Position numbers and translations under genes: made by a program. A stretch of DNA of 64,000 nucleotides from Thalassotalea sp. PS06 (lineage in GTDB: Bacteria; Pseudomonadota; Gammaproteobacteria; Enterobacterales; Alteromonadaceae), in the NCBI RefSeq assembly GCF_007197775.1, contig NZ_CP041638.1, positions 1,488,001 through 1,552,000 of the forward strand, read 5' to 3'. Positions 28,574-30,303 of the stretch are shown here, one piece after another. The notes under the pieces were generated by a model. It made no database searches. It worked only from the letters and a program-made list of their open reading frames with translations, and was not told the origin of the DNA. The number at the start of each line of letters is the position of its first letter. Within the stretch, counting starts at the first letter, position 1.

Positions 28574-28771
28574 TCGCCGCCAACCCGATTGAATTTATTG
28601 GGGTCACCCATTAGAAAGCTCCGGTCAAGAACGCAGCCGTGTTTTCTTACTCTTTTTAATGGCAAGTACAGGGTTAAAGCTTCAACTCATTGATATTAGT
28701 GAATATGCACCTAATTTATGACAATTATTTGGTGTAAATATGCACCAGTCACCCATCTGAATTTAGGCGAT

Positions 28772-28800
28772 TTAGGCAAGCATCAATGATGTTTGCCTAA
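28772..28800. repeat. Perfect hairpin inside the IS noncoding region
   Basis: TTAGGCAAGCATC and GATGTTTGCCTAA form a 13-bp stem (one G-U) with a 3-nt loop. It lies within the IS element, downstream of the candidate guide RNA on the minus strand; it could end that transcript or be part of the IS end. Confidence 0.55.
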
Positions 28801-28873
28801 GGCCCTTAACTTGCGTTTCAGTCATCGTTTAGTACCAACCCCTGGTCCAGTTCCTGGCAAAGCCTTAAGCTCT

Positions 28874-29028
28874 GCTCAATAACAAATCTTTGGTTATGTA
28901 ATGGCATCCAACCCTAAATGGCTCCCGGCGTTGGGCATATTTAACAAATCAATATTGAGCGGTTGATGCGAAGGCCTAATCAGATCTTATGGTTTTTCCA
29001 ACCCCAGTATTAACTCAACGCATCAACC
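28874..29028 (-). ncRNA. Candidate bridge (seek) RNA of the IS110-family element
   Basis: On the minus strand, 18 nt past the transposase stop, two stem / internal-loop / hairpin units follow in tandem. Unit 1: GGTTGATGCG (29019-29028) pairs perfectly with CGCATCAACC (28961-28970) and encloses a small GGTT/AACC hairpin (28991-29003). Unit 2: GCTCAAT (28954-28960) pairs with ATTGAGC (28874-28880) and encloses CCAAC/GTTGG. The 3' side of loop 1 contains AAGATCTGAT (28979-28988), identical to 30162-30171, 7 nt outside the right inverted repeat. IS110-family recombinases use such RNAs, with two loops, to pair with donor and target DNA. Location, size (~155 nt) and shape fit; expression is untested. 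Confidence 0.5.
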
Positions 29029-29046
29029 TAAATCATCATAATGTCA

Positions 29047-30087
29047 TTAACTGAATGCTTTGTTATCCTCGAATGCTACGTTACTTTTAAGTACGTGGTA
29101 ACAAGCTCTCGCGAGCTTATGAGCAACCGTTTTAAGGGCGATGTTGCGATTCGTTCTAGCCAGTTTTCGCTGATAGTACTTTTTTATTGCCGGGTTGTAT
29201 CGCATAGCAAAATTGGCCGCTTCTATAAACGCCCACGCTAGATAACGGTTACCATTTTTTATATTCGTGGAGCCTTTTTTCTTACCGTTACTTGTCCTGC
29301 TGCCATTTACGCAGCGACAATACGAGGCGAAGTTACCCGCACTTGCAAACCGTTCTATCGTTCCTGTTTCTAACATGATGGTCAGCGCAAGCACCTTGCC
29401 GATACCATCAATGCTGGTCAGTAAACGAAATTCAGGAGACAGCGATACTTGCTTTAAAACCTGTGATTCTATGTGCTTAATCTGTTGCTGTGCACAGCGC
29501 AATAACGCTAGGTTTGAATAGACGGCAGTACTGGTATGTGCCGAAGAGAATGTTTGGTTGATATCATCGATATTCGTCTCTTCAAAGCACTGGGCCATTT
29601 GCTTAATTTTATTGCTGCTTGGTTTATAACCCAGGTGGCGCATATAGCAACTTTGGATGGATAACAAATTCTTTGTCGATTGCTGTACGATATCCATTCG
29701 CTTGCGCATCAGGTCTCGCACGCTTCGCATTTCTTTTGGGTATATATAGCCTTCAGGCAACACATCAAGCCGTAGCATTTCAGCAAGCCATCGGGCATCC
29801 GTTTTATCGTCAGCGTGCTTGAGTCCTGAATATTGTTGAATCGCACTGGGATTAGCTAAGTGCATTTGGAAACCATCTTCCATCAAAGCATCGACAAGCC
29901 AGTACCAGTTAAAGGTCGACTCCACAACGAGTCCGGTCAAATCATTTTTGTAGGGTTTTAAGAATGATTGAATAACCGTTAAATCGTTATCTAGCCTTTT
30001 GGTCAACAACTTTTCACCGTTACCATTTACAATAGCAATAACACAATTGTTTGAATGCAAATCAATTCCACCATATAGTTTCATCAT
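29047..30087 (-). CDS. IS110-family transposase (DEDD recombinase)
   Basis: A 346-residue protein that appears intact. The N-terminal RuvC-like DEDD domain begins MKLYGGIDLHSNN with the first catalytic Asp; ALVVESTF-like GLVVEST gives the second acidic residue, and HADDKTDARWLAEML the last pair. The C-terminal transposase_20-type domain has LLTSIDGIGKVLALTIMLE, and the serine-bearing SYCRCVNGSRTSNGKKKGS motif expected to hold the nucleophile. The GAGGAG ribosome site is within a hairpin (see 30088-30150). It encodes the only recognised transposase in the window. Confidence 0.94.
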   Translation of the reverse strand: MMKLYGGIDLHSNNCVIAIVNGNGEKLLTKRLDNDLTVIQSFLKPYKNDLTGLVVESTFNWYWLVDALMEDGFQMHLANPSAIQQYSGLKHADDKTDARWLAEMLRLDVLPEGYIYPKEMRSVRDLMRKRMDIVQQSTKNLLSIQSCYMRHLGYKPSSNKIKQMAQCFEETNIDDINQTFSSAHTSTAVYSNLALLRCAQQQIKHIESQVLKQVSLSPEFRLLTSIDGIGKVLALTIMLETGTIERFASAGNFASYCRCVNGSRTSNGKKKGSTNIKNGNRYLAWAFIEAANFAMRYNPAIKKYYQRKLARTNRNIALKTVAHKLARACYHVLKSNVAFEDNKAFS

Positions 30088-30150
30088 AAGCTCCTCTCGA
30101 TACTGTTTATGTTTTGGTCAACACAACTGTATCGATTACAAGAGGAGCTT
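30088..30150 (-). promoter_or_regulatory. Hairpin sequestering the transposase ribosome-binding site
   Basis: On the transcript strand AAGCTCCTC + TCGATAC pair with GTATCGA + GAGGAGCTT (9 and 7 bp, separated by a 6-nt bulge), burying the GAGGAG site directly before the ATG at 30087. Transcripts reading in from outside would be poorly translated, a known safeguard in other IS families. The stem also includes most of the right inverted repeat. Confidence 0.6.
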
Positions 30151-30303
30151 TCTATATGATTATCAGATCTTGATCCGTGCAAAGATAACACCCCTAAGTT
30201 AATAAAACTAAGGAAACTGGTCTAAGCCCATCTGTGAATAATCGTTGCTGATCTAGAACATGCGAAATTCAAGATTTGACCCTAACTCGTTAAGGTCTGG
30301 GAG

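Follow-up and report, generated by a model that had tools for sequence, protein, structure and literature searches.

An IS1111-type insertion sequence in Thalassotalea sp. PS06 with a predicted guide RNA whose first loop covaries with the insertion target

The window, i.e., the whole stretch of Thalassotalea sp. PS06 DNA analysed here (64,000 nucleotides), contains an IS1111-type insertion sequence that spans positions 28607-30163 plus one TG and sits between two genes. Four copies, reported to be 100% identical, are present in the genome (3.80 Mb, one contig). Because the transposase gene (tnp) is on the minus strand, the left end of the element lies at the right side of the window and its right end at the left. 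The DNA features are as follows:

29047..30087, minus strand: DEDD transposase (IS110/IS1111), 346 aa, from profile matches and the IS621 alignment
30144..30154, no strand: left-end subterminal inverted repeat (5' of tnp), perfect 11 bp
28612..28622, no strand: right-end subterminal inverted repeat (3' of tnp), perfect 11 bp
30155..30163, minus strand: left-end extension ATAATCATA, linking repeat and TG core, from empty sites and the left end conserved among relatives
28607..28611, minus strand: right-end extension ATGGG, linking repeat and TG core; relatives read ATGGG-(T/C)G
30164..30171, minus strand: left target half AAGATC plus TG core, common to the four copies with differing outer flanks and equal to the B guide
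28599..28606, minus strand: TG core plus right target half ACCCCA (in 3/4 copies; ACCCTA in copy L004)
30269..30283, minus strand: further target-like arm AGGGTCAAATCTTGA adjoining the insertion (L026)

The transposase matches PF01548 (64.6 bits), PF02371 (72.8 bits) and the NCBIfam model NF033542, ‘IS110 family RNA-guided transposase’, at 192 bits (cut-off 140). It also matches the IS621 structure PDB 8wt6 (E 3.1e-12) and aligns to IS621 across both domains; such full-length kinship (DEDD_Tnp_IS110 plus Transposase_20) is a trait of IS1111. The motif of the transposase, SYCRCVNGSRTSNG, has its serine aligned with a serine of IS621, where the next residue is G rather than the N found here, and the pattern CRCV..SNGK occurs in 70 of the 120 homologues listed, a strict pattern that misses variants such as CRCI. 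This YCRC....SNG form differs from the IS1111 motif GL-P----S(T)G, which is a consensus and not definitional (PMC11187229).

The inverted repeats that the first-pass annotation had noticed around the transposase are indeed perfect (11/11 bp), in agreement with the subterminal repeats of IS1111, usually 11-13 bp; comparable repeats of at least 8 bp were found in many, not all, of the relatives read. The noncoding region (NCR) downstream of tnp, estimated earlier at about 435 bp, measures exactly that when counted from the tnp stop with the whole left (window) repeat included, while 56 bp separate the start codon from the other repeat. The longer NCR downstream of tnp is again an IS1111 trait.

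All four copies are inserted in GGGGTCAGATCTTGA on the window strand, which is an arm of REP-like palindromes in the same genome. Their flanks read GGGGTCA on one side (AGGGTCA in one copy) and TCAGATCTTGA on the other, and the outer flanks differ. The genome holds 30 sites with two or fewer mismatches from GGGGTCAGATCTTGA, against 2 for the reversed pattern, and 12 of the 30 form six inverted pairs with starts 36-39 bp apart, giving palindromes of ∼50 bp. The arm that is hit is GGGGTCA-GATCTTGA, and the four copies share one orientation relative to the palindrome; L004 splits one arm and the second is intact. At 3665-3677 kb of the genome (G000:C1), target-like palindromes are clustered with two of the four copies, ∼6 kb apart.

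The ends of the element were fixed from its copies and from empty sites. A Pseudoalteromonas empty locus, the left flank of which is orthologous to that of relative L036 (88% identity), reads ...GAAGTCAAAATTTGACCCC, i.e., TTTGACCCC, and TTTGACCCC was found in 10/10 paralogous empty sites (eight Pseudoalteromonas loci). Filled sites read AAGATC-TG-ATAATCATA-repeat on the left and repeat-ATGGG-TG-ACCCC on the right. Relative L124, with T at target position +1, has CAC-TG-AAGATC at its left end and GGG-TG-TCACC at its right; given this difference at +1, the common core is TG. It is present on both sides, 9 nt outside the repeat at the left end and 5 nt at the right end, and the empty sites place the predicted strand exchange at this dinucleotide. 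For the window copy, an orthologous empty site was sought within the genus: the neighbouring gene matched in 15/15 genomes, and the intergenic DNA at nine loci was not comparable. A search of L124's own genome for its target gave no exact copy and one site with a single mismatch.

Relatives with 42-76% protein identity use other targets. In Pseudoalteromonas (L113-L119 and L121) the target belongs to a repeated sequence, and the L113 site lies directly upstream of a Y1 transposase gene matching PF01797 (49.6 bits; one locus translated), so that one mobile element seems to land in the repeat of another. The setting of the L113 site is RAYT-like. Whether the repeats of the Thalassotalea genome belong to a RAYT gene was also considered, and this was rejected, as the only PF01797 match there scored 22.1 bits, below the cut-off of 23. 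Relatives L072 and L076, from one genome, both show a tandem duplication of the 18-20 bp that open the right flank (TGACCCC...).

The predicted RNA is encoded on the same strand as the transposase, and three RNA domains are distinguished in the NCR:

28961..29028, minus strand: RNA domain 1, target loop (stem, loop sides, UGG-CCA hairpin), from fold z -2.73 and the outer-stem swap test
29001..29011, minus strand: T guide AAUACUGGGGU, complementary to the right target half, from swap tests and positional tracking
28981..28988, minus strand: B guide AAGAUC-UG (AAGAUC at 28983-28988), same sense as the left target half and pairing with the bottom strand
28874..28960, minus strand: RNA domain 2, with a layout like loop 1 (GAGCC-T2-UGG hairpin-CCA-B2-UG) and weak target tracking
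28716..28827, minus strand: RNA domain 3, closed by a long-range helix (28818-28827 with 28716-28724), from conservation across 19 aligned elements and the helix swap test
28745..28759, minus strand: right-end mimic CAGATGGGTGACTGG inside domain 3, from identity to the element's own right-end junction

In domain 1, UGGGGU pairs with the top strand of the right target half and AAGAUC-UG with the bottom strand of the left half. The complement of the top strand thus lies 5' of that of the bottom strand (T before B), which in this predicted RNA is the published order of IS1111 seekRNAs. The first-pass annotation had called attention to both loop sides, and its matches are reproduced here: AAGATCTGAT, in the RNA strand at 28979-28988, recurs at 30162-30171, and the opposite side, TACTGGGGT, matches 28596-28604 at 8/9 positions. 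Each match lies 7 nt outside the right or left (window) repeat, respectively, as described at the time, although the equality of the two distances is partly accidental, the true spacing given by the empty sites being 9 and 5 nt. A caveat that the guide side overlaps the inner stem by three or four bases can be dropped, since the conserved hairpin UGG...CCA (28990-29000) adjoins the guide without overlapping it.

Two consecutive units of stem, internal loop and hairpin had also been described; the shared layout holds, and loop 1 alone is stabler than its shuffles (z -2.73, 2/200 as good), but this does not hold for the full 187 nt (z -0.88, 37/200 as good). A search of the window against Rfam gave no match at gathering scores. 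Of 20,000 shuffles of loop 1, 175 matched the two 51-bp flanks over 10 nt, and 10 of 1,703 overlapping 51-bp stretches of the window have such a match, stretches across the element counted. As the flank match alone would thus be expected by chance at about 1%, the question was settled by family-wide swap tests.

Guides and flanks change jointly across the relatives. On the left, the six bases before UG agree with the six flank bases before TG at a mean of 4.45/6 in native combinations and 2.22 when swapped (22 distinct guides), and on the right the means are 5.15/6 and 3.08 (13 distinct guides); the native value was reached by 0/20,000 guide-flank permutations on either side, relatedness being uncorrected. 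For the left guide, tracking extends over target positions -1 to -5 and ends at -6, and a weaker signal is seen again at -7; for the right guide, it covers +1 and +3 to +8, with reduced strength at +4 and +8, and position +2 does not vary. Examples of guide and flank are CUGAAU and CTGAAT in L134, UACGGUGA and TCACCGTA in L124, CCCUGUGU and ACACAGGG in L131, and GAUCGUUGA and TCAACGATC in L133; L125 and L129, from the same genome, carry different left guides. Poor fits are L130 and L138 (2/6) on the left and L137 (3/6), L048, L072 and L139 (4/6) on the right. The outer stem of loop 1 covaries as well, with -18.1 kcal/mol for native partners against -7.4 for swapped ones in 16 elements (0/20,000, relatedness uncorrected) and the native partner among the best three in 15/16. 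The earlier proposal that loop 1 of a downstream IS110/IS1111 guide RNA reads the junction or target is, for the target, borne out by this joint change.

The left test covered 38 elements (26 distinct pairs, 22 distinct guides) and the right test 37 (22 pairs, 13 guides), the four own copies included; the figures quoted count each distinct guide once. Repeat retrievals (L049-L057, L059-L065, L068) were omitted, as were L039, L075 and L077 (deleted, truncated or not anchored), L126 and L140 (left end unusable), L042 (core CG, no right end) and L066/L067 (32% relatives). L046, L047 and L048 contributed to just the right test, and L130 and L134 to just the left. The register of the T guide permits one optional C before UGG, set by sequence pattern. 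For L069 the flank of the first right end was used, a second right end following it, and the right flanks of L139 and L137 were entered by hand, that of L137 being doubtful. At the left end of L042 the core is apparently CG, not TG, and its guide CCUC-CG equals the flank CCTC-CG. The left-end base that follows TGA (T, A or G, mostly T) equals the corresponding B-guide base in 36/38 elements (not L044 and L139), and the guide may therefore additionally read one left-end base.

Domain 3, with its copy of the right end, lies outside what the first-pass annotation listed. Its motif, CTTGATCC-TGATGGGTG(A/T)CTGG, is present in 19 aligned elements, the first part being altered in the clade of the window's element. 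The mimic motif agrees with the element's own right-end junction at 8-11 of 12 bases in 16/16 elements, a comparison made without a shuffle control. In 34/36 elements (26 A, 8 T, near-identical copies counted), the first target base is the same as the base after the motif's GGGTG, the exceptions being L123 and L138. On the transposase tree, where L140 is labelled by its guide and not its flank, the T state needs three changes, of which well-supported branches force only one.

In a swap test of the closing helix with 18 elements, 1/20,000 permutations reached the native value when the doubtful 3' strand of L058 was included and 0/20,000 without that strand, relatedness uncorrected, and the native partner was among the best three for only 6/18. 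Earlier anchorings had given 0/20,000 (two 5' strands misplaced) and 12/20,000 (three others misplaced). RNAalifold returned a weak consensus for the domain-3 alignment of -9.1 kcal/mol with 19 rows and -12.2 with 16, and its covariation terms (0.9 and 2.2) are not favourable and were not counted as support; the case for the helix therefore rests on the swap test. Some 440-600 nt past the tnp stop, L069 and L037 carry the right-end segment in tandem, with a second right end ∼145-155 bp after the first; the tandem unit of L069 is the segment from the right-end mimic onward. These tandem right ends recall the tandem, detachable ssr9 module described for ISPpu9 (PMC8450116).

Domain 2 bears on the reading of the whole RNA as a two-loop bridge RNA in the sense of IS621, in which loop 1 binds the target and loop 2 the joined donor ends (RE-LE). 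The two successive loops are alike in layout, and for 93.0% of IS1111s a bridge RNA has been predicted (PMC11208160). However, an ungapped identity comparison of the loop-2 sides with the element ends gave no match, contrary to what the first-pass annotation had anticipated for loop 2, and the ends are nearly constant while loop 2 varies. The best match of the left end within the NCR is 7 or 8/12 in 15/18 elements, at the level of the shuffle means (7.5-8.6); L045 (10/12) and L044 and L139 (9/12 each) exceed these means, but the L045 match falls within loop 1. The copy of the right end is in domain 3, not loop 2. That 82 nt of RNA suffice in ISEc11 (PMC11187229) suggests that loop 2 may be dispensable. 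Near the core, loop 2 instead follows the target above chance (right +1, 18/20 against 10.3 shuffled; left -2, 11/22 against 6.7), much more weakly than loop 1, and L125 and L129 share loop 2 despite their different loop 1, so that this tracking is loose. A bridge RNA of this kind therefore appears unlikely.

Loops 1 and 2 resemble copies of each other, which would suit a history in which gene conversion copied the flank into the loop and the match is a trace of a past insertion with no guiding function. That the matching bases lie in a fixed register, on both strands, beside the core and inside a covarying stem, for many targets, makes such a history extremely improbable. A role in regulating the transposase, with incidental flank matches, has a precedent in Ssr9 of ISPpu9, an element found in REPs with a sense sRNA downstream of tnp that is proposed to counteract an antisense activator (PMC8450116). 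Pure regulation leaves the covariation of 22 left and 13 right distinct guides with their flanks unexplained and is contradicted as the sole role, which renders this account very improbable; a dual role is possible.

The preferred reading, in which the element is an RNA-guided insertion sequence of the IS1111 type, is almost certainly correct, judging from the sequence comparisons above. The transposase mRNA and the guide RNA would be transcribed from one strand, probably via a promoter formed at the joined ends of a circle. In the putative ribonucleoprotein, loop 1 would hold the transposase on a target that is read on both strands, the T guide on the right half and the B guide on the left with the TG core between them, and insertion of the circle would proceed through exchange at TG, so that the element ends up flanked by TG on each side. 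More tentatively, the guide RNA of this large IS1111 clade may be a three-domain molecule of ∼310 nt, with domain 1 reading the target, domain 2 a degenerate copy that still follows the target beside the core, and domain 3 mimicking the right end and first target base, without the inverted repeat, and possibly reading the right-end junction for excision or donor choice. If true, donor recognition would be split, the right end being recognised by RNA and the left end by protein (together with the subterminal repeat). Many IS1111 RNAs have been predicted, in the 2024 work, to carry potential donor-binding bases in a multiloop, and the right-end mimic is therefore a refinement rather than a new kind of feature.

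The mechanism (seekRNA or bridge RNA, 2024) and REP targeting are already published. Like the IS1111 seekRNA elements ISEc11, ISKpn4, ISPst6 and ISPa11 (PMC11187229), this one has a DEDD transposase, 11-bp subterminal repeats, the NCR downstream of tnp and T before B, along with natural retargeting and a REP-type target as for ISPa11. Its extensions around TG are 9 and 5 nt, against 7 and 3 bp in IS1111, where these lengths are typical and not family-defining, and its third RNA domain lies ∼220-330 nt past the stop codon, compared with a published long form of 145-170 nt (PMC11187229). It resembles IS621 (PMC11208160) in its guides on both strands around a dinucleotide core and its related transposase, and differs in that the RNA is on the opposite side of tnp, the guide order is reversed, the subterminal repeats are long and no donor match was found in loop 2. 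Specific insertion in REP palindromes is shared with ISPa11, ISPpu9, ISPpu10 and ISPsy8 (PMC1525189), although the repeat is a different one and the Pseudoalteromonas target lies upstream of a Y1 (RAYT-like) gene (one locus translated). The name ISGsu4 family appears in the annotation of the 49%-identical relative H7. In the passages of text surveyed on seekRNA, bridge RNA, IS1111, ISCro4 and REP-targeting IS, neither the end spacing of this clade nor the right-end mimic was found described.

This is thus a well-supported IS1111-type element with a testable variant feature. Within an IS1111 clade it offers a clean case of natural retargeting: the core is defined, empty sites are available, and the many different guide-target pairs form a ready set for deriving pairing rules (5 nt on the left, about 8 nt on the right). 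It also suggests, in concrete form, how elements of the IS1111 type might recognise their own ends, a matter treated differently by the 2024 papers: an 82-nt RNA suffices for ISEc11 (PMC11187229), as against the potential multiloop bases predicted for many IS1111 elements.

The joined right and left ends give TTGACC-17 nt-GATAAT, a candidate promoter by sequence only, in line with the junction promoter described for circles of IS1111 elements (PMC11187229). The -10 score is at least 4/6 in 15/18 elements, taking the best of three spacings and without a shuffle control. A megablast search of plasmids gave no match, and in viral contigs nine stretches fit a pattern, none of them a relative. A protein search scored 8,000 candidates, of which 7,961 matched at E ≤ 1e-60 (120 listed), and matches were found in 12 of 108 Pseudoalteromonas genomes at the same threshold and in 6 of 398 genomes of a phylum sample at E ≤ 1e-80, the own genome counted. 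Among 97 genomes, i.e., the own genome and those of relatives, the element is present in its own genome only (E ≤ 1e-60), which suggests that it was probably acquired by recent horizontal transfer.
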